Source of the DNA: Pseudovibrio sp. M1P-2-3
Lineage (GTDB): Bacteria; Pseudomonadota; Alphaproteobacteria; Rhizobiales; Stappiaceae
Direction: 5' to 3'
Length of the DNA: 64,000 bases
NCBI RefSeq assembly: GCF_031501865.1
Contig: NZ_JARRCW010000001.1
Location: 1,187,001-1,251,000, forward strand
In this document: piece by piece, positions 8,424 through 13,986 of the stretch
Layout: every line of letters begins with the position of its first letter
Position numbering within the stretch: position 1 is the stretch's first letter
Program-made: the position numbers and the translations under genes
Notes under the pieces: generated by a model
What the model saw: only the letters and a program-made list of their open reading frames with translations
Told to the model about the DNA's origin: nothing
Database searches by the model: none

Positions 8424-8693
8424 TTGAAAGTTCTCAAAAGAAAATTGAATTTTTAATGACACGATGAATAAAAAGGCTTTTTGTAAACACTATTCCTCTC
8501 TTCATGCCCTTGGCATATTCCTATAAAGCAGAATGAGTATCAGTAGATTATTTTAAAGAGGGTTATCTTTGACTGTTATGTAGGACGGCTTTTCAAGGAA
8601 ATTAACGGAGTTTGCATCGCTCTCTTGCTATCGTGAAATTTCGCATAAAGCAGTCAGATAATCAACAAGGCTTAAAAGAAAGAAATTAGTTTG

Positions 8694-10136
8694 ATGAAGC
8701 TCGTTGCCCCAGTGCTTCGCGTGCTTGGATTTGCCTACATTGCTTTGGCGCTCCTTCTGCTTATACCACTCATGTGGGATCTACTTGCCAACAATCCGGA
8801 TTGGTTGGCATTTGCTTTCTCTTCGATAATCATAGGTATGATTGGGCTCTTACTTTCCGTCGCTATGGGCGGATACAAGATTGAGAGCATCAATTCGCGA
8901 CAAGCATTTTTGATAACCGCGTCTGCGTGGATTACAATCCCTGCATTCGGTGCTCTCCCATTTCTTGGTTTAGGGGTGGGGTTCCATAATGCTTTTTTTG
9001 AAAGTGTTTCCGGCTTTACAACGACTGGGTCGACAGTCTTGATGGGGTTGGATTCCATGCCTCCGGGTCTGCTGCTCTGGCGCTCTTTAACGCAATGGAT
9101 TGGCGGGGTAGGAATTATTGTGATGGCAAGTCTGCTTTTACCCCTTTTGAGAATAGGGGGAATGCAGCTTTTCAGAACAGAAAGCTCTGATAAAAGTGAG
9201 AAGATTGTTAGCCGAACCACTGACCTTGTGCGTTGGGTTATGGGGCTCTATGTGGTTCTTACGACCTTGTGTACTCTACTCTATCATCTTTCTGGAATGT
9301 CGTGGTTCGATGCACTCAACCATGCTTTGACAACACTCTCATCAGGTGGATTTTCTACCCACGATAAATCATTCGCGTATTTTGAGAGCCAAGCTGCTGT
9401 TTTCTTCGGTATTATTTTCATGATTGCCTCCGGCCTTCCTTTTGTCTTGATGATCAAAGCGGTGCGGCGCTCACCCAAGGTCCTCTTACAAGACCCTCAG
9501 GTTGTGACATTCATGGCAATTCTATTATTGTTCTCGATGGGCGTTTGTATTTATCTGGGCCTAAACAACGAAGTTCCATTTAAAGAAGCATTCTTGGAGT
9601 CAATGTTTGTTGTCACATCAGTGGTAACAACAACTGGCTTTGGTCTGGGAGATTATACGAACTGGGGTCCGCTTATTATCGGGGTTATTATGATGCTGAC
9701 CTTCTTCGGTGGGTGTACTGGGTCAACTTCGGGTGGGATCAAAACATTTCGGTTTATTGTGTTTTTCGGCACAGTACGCGCGAATATGAAGCAAATGATC
9801 AGACCGGATCAGGTGGTCGTTATTCGGTATGGGGAAACCAATGTAACCCCCGACCTTGCTTTTTCTGTTCTAGCATTTTTAGTTGTCTATTTAAGTACTG
9901 TGGGCATTGTTACGGTAGTTTTGACAGGTTTTAATCTTGATCTTGTGACGGCTTTGAGTGCCGCTGCAACAGCTATCGGTAATGTCGGGCCGGGGCTTGG
10001 GCCGATTGTTGGGCCAGCAGGAACTTTTGCAGATATCCCTTTAGGTGCAAAATGGGTTCTTTCGGGTGCAATGTTACTGGGGAGACTGGAACTGTTCACG
10101 GTATTGATCCTATTGGATCCTGAATTTTGGAGATAA
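8694..10136 (+). CDS. trkH: TrkH-type potassium transporter subunit, copy 1
   Basis: 480 residues from the ATG at 8694; a TTG directly before it could also start. It has about ten membrane segments in the four-fold TrkH/KtrB pore plan. The four pore loops can be seen: SGFTTTGSTVL, TTLSSGGFSTHD, TTTGFGLGDYTNW and AIGNVGPGLGPI, each with the selectivity-filter Gly. The protein forms the K+ path in the inner membrane and needs a cytoplasmic TrkA gating ring, which is not encoded here. The next gene is a close paralogue of the same length, so this is a tandem duplication. The ribosome binding site is weak (AAAGAAAG). Confidence 0.93.
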   Translation: MKLVAPVLRVLGFAYIALALLLLIPLMWDLLANNPDWLAFAFSSIIIGMIGLLLSVAMGGYKIESINSRQAFLITASAWITIPAFGALPFLGLGVGFHNAFFESVSGFTTTGSTVLMGLDSMPPGLLLWRSLTQWIGGVGIIVMASLLLPLLRIGGMQLFRTESSDKSEKIVSRTTDLVRWVMGLYVVLTTLCTLLYHLSGMSWFDALNHALTTLSSGGFSTHDKSFAYFESQAAVFFGIIFMIASGLPFVLMIKAVRRSPKVLLQDPQVVTFMAILLLFSMGVCIYLGLNNEVPFKEAFLESMFVVTSVVTTTGFGLGDYTNWGPLIIGVIMMLTFFGGCTGSTSGGIKTFRFIVFFGTVRANMKQMIRPDQVVVIRYGETNVTPDLAFSVLAFLVVYLSTVGIVTVVLTGFNLDLVTALSAAATAIGNVGPGLGPIVGPAGTFADIPLGAKWVLSGAMLLGRLELFTVLILLDPEFWR

Positions 10137-10386
10137 GCGCTGTGAAAACAGGCAATAATGAGTTGTAAATGAAGGGAATTTATCAAAGCCCTATCCGAGA
10201 TACGGCATATCGCTCTAGTGAGCTATAAAATATGAAGGGTGAAATGCTGTGGAGAGCTAGGGTAAAACTGACCCACTTTACTGTGATAACACTTGCGAGT
10301 TTCCACGCCAGCCGCATAGTGGCTCCTTAGTACATTCCCAATTGGGAACCTTTTTCTTTCTTTTTTGCTTACACAGAGACTATAAT

Positions 10387-11832
10387 TTGATTTCTTTTCG
10401 GCCAGTTTTAAGTGTTCTGGGATACCTTTATGTTGGTTTGGCCGCAGCAATGCTCATTCCCGCAATTGTCGATGTTGCCGCCCGTAATGCTGACTGGCAA
10501 GCCTTTGTGCTTTCGTCTTTAGTGGTTGGCTTGCTGGGACTACTGTTGATCGTTGCAATGGGCAGCGCCCTTGAAGCAGGGCTGGATACCCGTCAAACAT
10601 TTTTGTTAACGACACTTTCCTGGATTTCCCTACCTGCCTTTGGAGCTTTACCATTCCTATGGTTGGGCGTTGCATATGTTGATGCCGCATTTGAAGCGGT
10701 ATCAGGATTTACAACCACGGGTTCTACAGTTCTGACAGGTTTGGACTCCCTGCCTCCTGGGCTTTTGGTTTGGCGTTCTTTGATGCAGTGGATGGGGGGC
10801 GTCGGTATTGTCGTTATGGCTATTGTCTTGTTGCCATTCCTGAAAATTGGCGGAATGCAGCTGTTTCAAACTGAAAGCTCGGATCATAGTGAGAAGATTG
10901 TAGGCCGATCAATCGAGTTGATTCGCTTGATCGGTCTTACCTATTTGTTTTTGACCAGCTTGTGCCTCGTTGCCTACTGGGCTTCAGGTATGTCCTTATT
11001 TGATGCGTTCAATCATGCTCTGACAACTATCGCGACCGGTGGATACTCGACACATGATTCATCTTTTGGGTTTTTCAAAAACCCTGTCACTGGGTGGATT
11101 GCCGTTCTTTTCATGATTGTAGGATCGCTGCCATTTGTACTTGTAATTCAAGGTCTCAGGGGGCAGCCCTTAGTGCTTTGGCGGGATCCGCAAGTCAGGG
11201 CATTCCTTGTGTTTCTATTGCTTATTACAATGGCTCTTACAATCTATCTCGGGGTTTCGGGGCAAGCTGAGTTCTCACAGGCCCTTCTTCAGGCCGCATT
11301 TAATGTGGTTTCGGTTATTACTGGGACCGGCTACGCTATGGGTGATTATACGGCGTGGGGAGCTCCGGTTATTGGGCTTGCGCTTCTTTTAAAGTTTGTT
11401 GGCGGGTGTACGGGATCAACAACTGGTGGAATTAAAATTTTCCGTTTCCTAGTGTTTTTTGGAACTGTAAAAGCACACATGCGCCGAATGGTTCGGCCTA
11501 ATCGTGTCATCTCGGAAAGCTATGGCAGTACACGGCTGACGCCAGAGTTGACTTTTTCTGTTCTCGCGTTTCTTGTCGTTTATTTAGGTACAGTCGGGCT
11601 CCTTACCCTCGTATTATCCGCCTTTAACCTTGATCTGGTGACTGCGGTTTCCGCTGCGGCCACGTCGGTTGGCAATGTAGGGCCAGGATTGGGAACGACT
11701 ATTGGCCCTTCAGGGAATTTTGGCCCATTACCGGATGCGGTTAAGTGGATCCTCAGTGCCGCGATGCTTCTTGGACGGCTGGAGCTGTTTACTGTTATTA
11801 TCTTGCTGGATCCAGACTTCTGGTCACGCTAG
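10387..11832 (+). CDS. trkH: TrkH-type potassium transporter subunit, copy 2
   Basis: 481 residues from a TTG at 10387 (ISFRPVLSVLGYLY follows). I chose this start because it lines up with copy 1 and gives nearly the same length; the frame could open earlier at a TTG at 10342. Pore loops are SGFTTTGSTVLTG, TTIATGGYSTHD, VITGTGYAMGDYTAW and SVGNVGPGLGTT. The third loop differs from copy 1 (ITGTGYAMG against TTTGFGLG), so affinity or ion preference may differ. The 250 bases between the copies contain no gene and could hold a separate promoter. Confidence 0.92.
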   Translation: MISFRPVLSVLGYLYVGLAAAMLIPAIVDVAARNADWQAFVLSSLVVGLLGLLLIVAMGSALEAGLDTRQTFLLTTLSWISLPAFGALPFLWLGVAYVDAAFEAVSGFTTTGSTVLTGLDSLPPGLLVWRSLMQWMGGVGIVVMAIVLLPFLKIGGMQLFQTESSDHSEKIVGRSIELIRLIGLTYLFLTSLCLVAYWASGMSLFDAFNHALTTIATGGYSTHDSSFGFFKNPVTGWIAVLFMIVGSLPFVLVIQGLRGQPLVLWRDPQVRAFLVFLLLITMALTIYLGVSGQAEFSQALLQAAFNVVSVITGTGYAMGDYTAWGAPVIGLALLLKFVGGCTGSTTGGIKIFRFLVFFGTVKAHMRRMVRPNRVISESYGSTRLTPELTFSVLAFLVVYLGTVGLLTLVLSAFNLDLVTAVSAAATSVGNVGPGLGTTIGPSGNFGPLPDAVKWILSAAMLLGRLELFTVIILLDPDFWSR

Positions 11833-11859: not shown

Positions 11860-12564
11860 ATGATTTTTGAAAGTACGCTCGTAACGGGCAGGCTGGTCAA
11901 ACGCTATAAGCGTTTTCTCGCTGATGTTATATTGGATGAGACTGGGGAAGTTGTAACGGCTCATTGCGCAAATTCCGGTTCTATGATGGGGTTGTGTGAG
12001 GAGGGGATCCGTGTCTGGCTCTCCAGATCAGATAATCCGAAACGAAAACTCAAGTACTCATGGGAGCTTTTGGAAATAGACGGTGCAATGGTTGGGATTA
12101 ACACCTCCAGACCAAATAGGTTGGTAGAGGAGGCGCTGGAAACCAACCTTATTACACAGCTGAGTGGATATAAAAGTTTAAGGCGTGAGGTTAAATACGG
12201 AAAGAACTCTCGTATCGATATACTTCTTGAGGATCTGGCTGGTCAGAGTGTTTACGTTGAAGTGAAAAATGTCACGCTAGCTCGAAGCAGCGCTGTTTCA
12301 GAGTTTCCTGATAGCATTACAGCTCGAGGTGCAAAGCACCTTGCTGAGCTGTGTGATATGATTGATCAGGGGCACCGATCTGCTATGGTGTATCTGATAC
12401 AACGGGATGATTGTGACATAGTGACTATTGCCCGGGACATAGACCCCAAATATGGACAGGCCTTTGATTTAGCTCGAGAGAAGGGAGTGGAGTTCTATGC
12501 ATTGCAATGCTCGATTACTCCCCAATCAATCAAGGCCGAGAAAGTCGGAGCTGTTCGCTTTTAG
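11860..12564 (+). CDS. sfsA: SfsA family DNA/RNA nuclease (sugar fermentation stimulation protein)
   Basis: 234 residues, the normal length. An N-terminal OB-like part (residues 1-80, with CANSGSMMGL) precedes a nuclease-like core: NTSRPNRLVEEAL, then RIDILLEDL and VYVEVKNVTL, the D...ExK pattern of PD-(D/E)xK nucleases. E. coli SfsA was named for effects on maltose metabolism; its true role remains unclear. The ATG follows trkH by 27 bases. The stop codon TAG (12562-12564) touches the end of the IS110 element, which lies immediately downstream without disturbing the frame. Confidence 0.92.
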   Translation: MIFESTLVTGRLVKRYKRFLADVILDETGEVVTAHCANSGSMMGLCEEGIRVWLSRSDNPKRKLKYSWELLEIDGAMVGINTSRPNRLVEEALETNLITQLSGYKSLRREVKYGKNSRIDILLEDLAGQSVYVEVKNVTLARSSAVSEFPDSITARGAKHLAELCDMIDQGHRSAMVYLIQRDDCDIVTIARDIDPKYGQAFDLAREKGVEFYALQCSITPQSIKAEKVGAVRF

Positions 12565-12578
12565 AGTATCCGTCTTGG

Positions 12579-13514
12579 TCAAGCCGTTTTTGGTTGCCAT
12601 TGCCGGTCCGCTTTTATGAGAGCGTTTGCCAGTTCGATTAGCTTACGCATGAGAGCTATTATGGCGATTTTGGGAGGCTTACCAGCCGCTCGCATCTGGT
12701 TGTATTTGGCTTTCAGGTCTGGATTATAACGGCTGGCAACAACGGCAGGCATGTAGAGTGCATCGCGTACCGGCTTGCGCCCTGCTTGAATAAAAGCAGC
12801 GCCCCGCCAGCGTCCTGACTGGCGGGTCATGGGGGCCAGCCCCGCCAGAGCAGCGGCCTGTTTACGGGATAATTGTCCAAGCTCTGGCATTTCAATCACC
12901 AGCGCCGCGACGGCGACCTGTCCCAGCCCGGGAATAGAGTGTAAAATCTTTGCTGCCCGCGCCCTTTGAGGGCTCTGCTCAATTTGCTTTTGAGTTTCGG
13001 CGTTAAGGGCCTCCAATTGCTTTCGCACGAGTTTCAGGCGTTGCTGTGTCTGTTTGCGAACCAGGTTCACCCGTTGTGTTTTCAACCGGTTCTCCAGTTG
13101 CGTGGCTTCTTTTACAAGAGCTTGACGTGCAACGCGTATCTCTTTGAGATGACATAGGCTTGCATCGACTGGCTTGTCTGGTTCCAACTGGAAATCCTGC
13201 CCCATTTGGGCCAGCAGGCGCGCATCAATCCGGTCCGTCTTCGCCCTCTTGCCTTTGGCCTGTGCAAACCGGCGTGCTTGCCATGGGTTAACTTTGCTCA
13301 GAGGATAGGAACCCGACAATGCCAACTCAAAAGCGCCGTGATAAGAACCTGTGGGTTCAAAAATAATTCGAGCGACAGGCAGGCCTTTCAGCCAGCTTTT
13401 TAACTGTCTGTACCCTGCAGCTGTATTGGTAAACTGCTTGCTCTGCTCATCCGGCAGGCAGTACACATCAAGATGGTCTTTCGAAATATCGACACCAATG
13501 GTAACCTCAGACAT
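12579..13514 (-). CDS. IS110-family transposase (DEDD recombinase)
   Basis: 311 residues, apparently intact. The N-terminal RuvC-like DEDD domain begins GVDISKDHLDVY (first Asp) and continues with IIFEPTGSYH (Glu) and KTDRIDARLLAQ (the two Asp). A coiled-coil stretch spans about 125-185. The C-terminal Transposase_20 domain has SIPGLGQVAVAALV and AALAGLAPMTRQSGRWRG; the serine expected as the covalent nucleophile is probably in this Gly/Ser-containing segment. The enzyme recombines the circular element with target DNA, guided in this family by a bridge RNA. The start ATG at 13514 comes directly after the structured leader. Confidence 0.95.
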   Translation of the reverse strand: MSEVTIGVDISKDHLDVYCLPDEQSKQFTNTAAGYRQLKSWLKGLPVARIIFEPTGSYHGAFELALSGSYPLSKVNPWQARRFAQAKGKRAKTDRIDARLLAQMGQDFQLEPDKPVDASLCHLKEIRVARQALVKEATQLENRLKTQRVNLVRKQTQQRLKLVRKQLEALNAETQKQIEQSPQRARAAKILHSIPGLGQVAVAALVIEMPELGQLSRKQAAALAGLAPMTRQSGRWRGAAFIQAGRKPVRDALYMPAVVASRYNPDLKAKYNQMRAAGKPPKIAIIALMRKLIELANALIKADRQWQPKTA

Positions 13515-13680
13515 CTTCGCAAGTATCCTATGCTTGTCGTGCAGAGCTTTGGGCTGCTGCGTATCCGTTCAGGCCTGTTGCGAAGACGGTGGCCGATCAT
13601 ACTCTAAAACGGTCCCTTGTGACCTAGCGCGTCCCGATCCGACCACCGCCACTGCCCTCCCGACTCAATACGGTGGCCAT
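13515..13680 (-). ncRNA. Candidate IS110 bridge RNA with target- and donor-binding loops
   Basis: Read on the transposase strand there are three structured parts. (1) A 5' hairpin, GCCAC/GTGGC (13677-13673 with 13652-13648). (2) A loop closed by GGTGG..ATC with GATC..CCACC (13647-13636 with 13598-13588) and split by a GGTC/GACC hairpin. (3) A loop closed by the perfect 8-bp TTGCGAAG/CTTCGCAA pairing (13585-13578 with 13522-13515) and split by a GCAGCAGC/GCTCTGC hairpin. Loop 2 carries GGGACGCGCT (13635-13626), matching the left flank GGAACGCGCT at 9 of 10, and TTTTAGAG (13609-13602), complementary to the right flank plus core. Loop 3 carries ACGGATAC (13568-13561), identical to the transposase-distal IS end, and GACAAG (13538-13533), complementary to the other IS end plus core. 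Order and strand sense fit a bridge RNA. Exact ends unknown. Confidence 0.7.
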
Positions 13681-13719
13681 TGGCCTATATTCGCAGAAGA
13701 CACTAAAAAGCATAAGACA

Positions 13720-13823
13720 AGCGCGTTCCGTTTGACTGGGTTCAGTCAAACGACAGGAATTCGCTCAAAATGAATAAGTTAGAGCACAAAGCGTGAATAC
13801 GCATGAACGCGATGTACTCTAGA
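13720..13823. repeat. Palindromic intergenic repeat, copy A (left arm split by the IS)
   Basis: The right arm AGTCAAACGACAGG..GCTC (13744-13766) faces a partly degraded left arm CGCGTTCCGTTTGACT (13722-13737) around GGGTTC. A second part, from AATAAGTTAGAG to GATGTACTCT, forms an imperfect hairpin. Both parts align with copy B at 31893-32003. The first bases of the repeat, TTAGAG, are now at 12561-12566 on the far side of the IS. The remaining bases up to gpt (13824-13986) show nothing recognisable. Confidence 0.8.
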
Positions 13824-13986
13824 TCTGGAGGCAGAGACTTGTTGGCCCGTTGTCCTACATGCCTTAGCAGACGATAAAGGGTGCAGAAAGAAAAAGCGCA
13901 AGAACAGAGTATAGCTCTGAATCTTGCGCTCAATGATCTTGAGTTACGAGAACGGCTCGTGGGCCGCTGAAAATACCGAGATGTAG

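Follow-up and report, generated by a model that had tools for sequence, protein, structure and literature searches.

A probable bridge RNA in the leader of an IS110-group element of Pseudovibrio sp. M1P-2-3

The stretch analysed here (the window; 64,000 nucleotides, positions 1,187,001 to 1,251,000 of contig NZ_JARRCW010000001.1 from Pseudovibrio sp. M1P-2-3) contains an IS110-group, IS621-like insertion sequence (IS) whose leader very probably encodes a bridge RNA. The element is a well-supported further example of the recently described bridge-RNA systems, and not a new kind of system. The element and its junctions, four complementarities that vary across relatives with the targets (and in one case with an element end), a conserved fold and promoter-like boxes can be read directly from the sequence. 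The features are listed in window coordinates.

12565-13721, minus strand: IS110-group element, counted with its two CT core copies, delimited by 11 near-full copies with diverging flanks and by empty repeats
12579-13514, minus strand: recombinase of 311 amino acids, recognized by Pfam DEDD_Tnp_IS110 and Transposase_20 and by alignment to PDB 8wt6
13515-13719, minus strand: leader encoding the predicted bridge RNA, with a fold conserved in 21 elements
13588-13647, minus strand: target loop, closed by the stem GGTGGTCGGATC / GATCGGCCACC; alignment helices 2 and 3
13626-13635, minus strand: left target guide GGGACGCGCT in the first loop, its last two bases being the core, from its match to the left flank and covariation
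13602-13609, minus strand: right target guide TTTTAGAG in the first loop, its last two bases pairing with the core, from complementarity and covariation
13561-13568, minus strand: left donor guide ACGGATAC in the second loop, equal to the distal end
13533-13538, minus strand: right donor guide GACAAG in the second loop, which is GAGAAG with a changed end in L051, L053 and L054
13720-13729, minus strand: left target half and CT core (GGAACGCG-CT), letters read in the window
12559-12566, minus strand: CT core and right target half (CT-CTAAAA), letters read in the window
12577-12582, minus strand: -35-like box TTGACC in the distal end, presumed to be used only when the ends join in a circle, at 17-bp spacing
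13709-13714, minus strand: -10-like box TATGCT in the near end, read in the window
13720-13821, minus strand: dispersed, palindromic repeat of 102 bp resembling a miniature inverted-repeat transposable element (MITE), with inverted ends TAGAGC/GCTCTA, the element lying in its end; at least 40 matches in the genome

The element and its four guide segments

The recombinase scored above the cut-off for both Pfam models, PF01548 (DEDD RuvC-like) and PF02371 (conserved serine), and in an alignment to IS621 its residues D9, E53, D94, D97 and S233 fall at the IS621 catalytic positions. It aligned with the IS621 structure 8wt6 over 297 residues (E 6.1e-38, 134 bits) and with the ISCro4 structure 9t56 at E 1.3e-35. 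Between the gene and the core lie 205 bp on the leader side and 12 bp on the other, giving a long left end and a short right end. The non-coding left end upstream of the gene, together with insertion at a CT core that duplicates no other target bases, is characteristic of the IS110 group; in the IS1111 group, whose members have subterminal inverted repeats of 7-17 bp, the RNA region lies downstream of the gene, where this element has 12 bp. A frame of 140 amino acids on the plus strand runs across the leader and is taken as spurious.

An earlier sequence-only reading had described a bridge RNA with four guide segments in this leader, and its coordinates, letters, guide order, strand sense, core and loops were all borne out. 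The left target guide agrees with the left flank plus core, GGAACGCGCT (13729-13720), at nine of ten positions, the mismatch being G against A, a possible G.T wobble. The right target guide is the reverse complement of the core plus right flank, CTCTAAAA (12566-12559). The left donor guide is identical to the distal element end at 12573-12566, and the right donor guide is the reverse complement of the core plus near end, CTTGTC (13721-13716). Among 20,000 dinucleotide-shuffled leaders, a left target guide (at least 9/10) arose in 202, a right target guide in 87, a left donor guide in 58 and a right donor guide in 1,144; 18 leaders contained at least two guides, and none had all four in order.

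The genome holds 11 near-full copies of the element, the window copy included, which align to the latter at 98.6-100% identity. The four guides are identical in the leaders of all 11, as verified by script in the 10 with an unbroken leader; each of those 10 also has the 311-amino-acid frame, and nine encode a single identical protein. From these 10 near-identical copies with intact gene and leader we infer that the element is probably functional. The 73 matches in plasmid records have 60-80% identity, and each spans less than 80% of the element.

The left flank GGAACGCGCT, one end of the 102-bp repeat, directly adjoins seven of the 11 copies. An eighth copy (L011) was at first read as having a different target, which was ruled out: a later insertion of ~1.05 kb (positions about 445-1500) splits its left end just upstream of the expected RNA start, and its original site is the same repeat, so that 8/11 copies sit at one repeat end. 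Of the remaining left flanks, L009 and L010 share another one and L008 has a third. The right flank starts with CTA in every copy except L005 (10/11). Because empty repeat ends continue uninterrupted through the site, the insertion product reads as left target, CT, element, CT, right target, with no further duplication. A second repeated sequence, ending in CGACACGCT, forms the left flank of four left ends, intact in L009 and L010 and truncated in L013 and L018.

Guides and fold among related elements

Relatives were sought in the window's own genome and its neighbours (101 genomes in all, 16 of them matching at 1e-40), in 397 genomes of the order (12 at 1e-75) and 385 of the class (4 at 1e-75), these genome sets overlapping, and in six named contigs. 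The 21 elements retained have a readable leader and, wherever a recombinase is present, at least 45% protein identity; they include the window copy (L001) and one fragment of a sister element (L014). Left out were near copies (L055 of L054; L074 and L082 of L058), L056 with 74 leader bases, L061, L068, L070, L079 and L114 without leader or start, the own-genome loci L002-L011, L057, L073, L081, L115 and L116, every fragment except L014, and all elements with less than 45% identity; the last, including L063, L064 and L075, were inspected by eye only.

The sequence-only reading had held that first-loop guides should vary with the target when relatives with differing flanks are compared, and they do. 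Scored over eight bases outside the core, with three offsets permitted for own and permuted pairs alike, the left guides matched their own flanks at 118/168 positions in the 21 elements (permuted mean 76.4, standard deviation 5.2). The right guides matched at 82/108 positions in the 18 elements with a right flank (permuted mean 44.0, standard deviation 5.6), and in neither case did any of 20,000 permutations reach the observed score. The strongest left matches are those of L109 (8/8) and of L112, L113, L062 and L054 (7/8 each), and L062 matches on the right at 6/6.

An unguided scan of all alignment columns in both senses placed the left-flank peak at column 91 in the same sense (z 5.7; window 13634) and the right-flank peak at column 130 as complement (z 6.7; window 13609), with 0/2,000 permutations in each case. 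Both peaks fall inside the predicted first-loop guides; the runners-up are 3.4, at the adjacent column 90, and 3.1. Removal of four close rows (17 and 16 elements) left the peaks at these columns, at z 5.8 and 6.6. The permutation tests, for guide scores and scan alike, ignore relatedness among the elements.

The donor guides match their own element ends and vary with them, in a set with few end changes to judge by. The distal end is ACGGATAC in all 18 rows that hold it, two of which (L060, L112) have a donor guide reading ATGGATAC, a possible wobble. In three of the 21 rows (L051, L053, L054) the near end is TCTC (CTTCTC) instead of TGTC, and the right donor guide has changed with it to GAGAAG. 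By eye, a distant element in genome G025 has ends CACAGATG-CT-TGCATG and guides ACAGATG and CATGCAAG, which differ from those in the window and agree with each other.

RNAalifold gave 35 pairs on the 21-row alignment, 23 with two-sided changes. Six were dropped from the count: columns 1-4 with 211-214, which reflect donor complementarity, and columns 168-169 with 175-176, which lie inside a guide. The remaining 29 pairs form in 94.6% of cells (shuffled mean 79.5%), and 22 of them show two-sided changes (shuffled mean 11.8; 0/500 shuffles as high). Slid versions of the structure are only 32-56% paired, a comparison in which the unshifted structure has the advantage of having been derived from the alignment on which it is scored. 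In the family, the fold comprises a 5' stem-loop followed by two stem-loops with internal loops, the donor stem having three pairs.

When the ends are joined, TTGACC stands 17 bp before TATGCT, an arrangement that by sequence resembles the junction promoter described for IS621 in the consulted sections of two reports (PMC11208160, PMC11208158). A TTG occurs at the same spacing in all 18 elements with both ends present, and their -10-like hexamers match TATAAT at 2-5 of 6 positions. From the position of the -10-like box, the RNA 5' end is expected near 13702. By analogy with IS621 we infer transcription, RNA binding, circle formation and catalysis, as follows. The element would be cut out as a circle, its ends joined as ACGGATA-CT-TGTC, and the promoter so built would transcribe the leader. 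The first loop would pair with the chromosomal target GGAACGCG-CT-CTAAAA at the end of the 102-bp repeat, and the second with the joined element ends. The recombinase would then swap strands at the CT core, leaving other target bases unduplicated.

The target repeat, sister elements and an unusual junction

Thirty of the repeat matches (L021-L050) were read. Nine contain an element left end, eight of this element and one of a sister type (L012/L029). Seventeen are uninterrupted at the target end, 16 continuing CT-CTA and one (L033) CCA, and four (L045, L046, L049, L050) are without that end in readable form. In most copies one repeat end is ...ACGCGCT-CTA and the other ...ATGTGCT-CTA. Of 16 genomes of the genus, counting the own genome, 11 contain the repeat, while the best recombinase match outside the own genome, in the genome-neighbour, order and class searches, has 59% identity over part of the protein (56-57% for longer matches); the repeat is therefore probably older in the genus than the element. 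Next to the window copy, the stop codon of an SfsA gene (11860-12564; Pfam PF03749) falls inside the target site 12559-12566, and the repeat end seems to supply it.

Locus L014 is a decayed sister with a left end only and no gene. Its guide GGGATGTGCT adjoins the flank GCGATGTACT, which is the opposite end of the same repeat, and the two bases by which this guide differs from that of the window match the two differences between the repeat ends (one instance). Two further loci (L019, L045) hold sister remnants at the opposite repeat end as well, with the guide lost, and L012 has a sister-type left end at the first repeat end with its guide region broken. The possibility that left-end-only fragments (L012, L013, L014, L018, L019, L045, L132) are guide RNA genes in their own right was rejected; since the point of truncation or decay differs from one to the next, they are taken as truncated remnants.

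The exceptional copy L005 (G000:C2 near 170528) has its right end joined to the middle of an IS66 tnpB gene at CT-TGTC, not at the expected CT-CTA. The flanking TnpB fragment (Pfam PF05717, E 6.3e-12) matches from profile position 58 of 101, and the first half of this tnpB is therefore missing. At the position of the break, the most similar paralogue in the genome (82%) has GCAAGGCG-CT-TGTC, which resembles the left junction of the element, AACGCG-CT-TGTC. A guided deletion would explain the junction; so would insertion into tnpB followed by recombination between element copies.

We tentatively propose a joint reading of L014 and L005, which we hold to be possible rather than probable. The sister would have been retargeted by two point changes, the repeat ends sharing the right half CT-CTA, and L005 would be a natural bridge-RNA deletion. 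In the latter, the RNA would have recombined the right junction onto a counterfeit left junction inside tnpB (AAGGCG-CT-TGTC, known only from the 82% paralogue), deleting the intervening DNA. Judged by title, open-licence literature on IS110 adjacent deletion, circular intermediates and bridge RNA from 2025 on contained nothing on this element or such a footprint.

Alternative readings and known systems

Several observations weigh against the bridge-RNA assignment. Three left guides match their flanks poorly (L111, 3/8; L117 and L119, 4/8 each), and for these guides 13 of 20 other flanks score equally well; on the right, L107 matches 3/6, as does L111. Among the ends, L052 and L062 carry a single altered near-end base that the guide does not follow, and the left core of L053 is TT instead of CT. 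In the own genome, the foreign right flank of L005 scores 0/6. No Rfam bridge RNA family was found, either in the whole window at the gathering threshold or in 13500-13850 at E-values up to 1, and a home-made alignment was used for this reason. The sequence-only reading had named as refutation related copies with different flanks and an unchanged first loop. Across the 21 elements the guides follow the flanks, yet L008, L009 and L010 keep the same guide beside other left flanks, matching at 6, 7 and 7 of 10. Since these three retain the core-proximal bases, and CTA on the right, we read them as tolerance of mismatches away from the core.

The proposed 5' hairpin with two internal loops, supported by the family alignment, is less well supported in the window copy on its own. 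Its minimum-energy fold (-75.2 kcal/mol, z -2.51, 3/200 shuffles equally good) differs, pairing the leader's two ends, and was set aside because the paired element ends lie partly upstream of the likely RNA start. In addition, helix 1, the 5' hairpin, loses three of its 12 consensus pairs in the window copy, while by eye the leaders of the sister-type L012 and L014 have an unbroken stem at this site. The bridge RNA could thus be real but belong to a declining copy or lineage, its weakened hairpin making it work less well. We consider this unlikely: with 11 copies at 98.6-100% identity to the window copy, of which 10 keep gene and leader intact, this very RNA seems to have spread recently, and the sister with the better stem survives as fragments only.

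A conserved leader RNA might instead mainly regulate transposase expression, as an untranslated region or antisense RNA, with the protein choosing the target. The leader does extend to the start codon, and the ISPpu9 transposase is regulated by two small RNAs and a 5' untranslated region, according to the part of that report consulted (PMC8450116); regulator and guide roles are compatible. This reading appears very improbable, as it offers no reason for the covariation of two short segments inside the RNA with the flanks, or of a third segment with the element end. That the guide-flank matches arose by chance or shared ancestry, from related elements in related flanks with no pairing needed, is hardly credible: the elements are indeed related, the permutation tests contain no tree and the eight own-genome copies sharing one repeat as left flank are not eight independent tests of the left guide, but the scan peaks exactly at the two guides in the predicted opposite senses and does so without the four close rows, the full guide set never arises in shuffled leaders, and the two guide changes in L014 correspond to two target changes.

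As far as the consulted sections of its two reports go (PMC11208160, PMC11208158), IS621 shares with the window element the recombinase family and catalytic residues, an RNA encoded in the left end, before the gene, a target loop before the donor loop, the CT core, the junction promoter and dispersed palindromic repeats as targets. In both, left guides resemble the bottom-strand partner and right guides pair with the top strand. The window element differs in its guides and target, its distant protein, its use of a MITE-like repeat end of an alphaproteobacterial genus and the imperfect 5' hairpin of this copy. ISCro4 (PDB 9t56) provides a second solved relative of the protein. Natural redirection by guide changes has been described, in the text available from PMC11187229, for ISMch6, a relative of the ISEc21 seekRNA element of IS110 type; there it joins two elements in different targets, whereas here, in one instance, a sister guide fits the other end of one and the same repeat. 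A similar preference for dispersed palindromic repeats, of other repeat families, is described for IS110-family elements inserting into REP sequences, in an account that predates bridge RNAs (PMC1525189, seen in part).

The element adds an alphaproteobacterial lineage in which guides, targets and ends are readable from sequence, with relatives in contigs named Methylocystis, Sphingomonas, Pseudotabrizicola, Paracoccus and Rhodobacteraceae. The 21 aligned RNAs form a natural record of guide tolerance, and the sister pair at opposite repeat ends and the odd L005 junction make bridge-RNA retargeting and off-target rearrangement testable in nature.

Elsewhere in the window, two tandem genes for TrkH-type cation transporters occupy 8691-10136 and 10342-11832 (Pfam PF02386).
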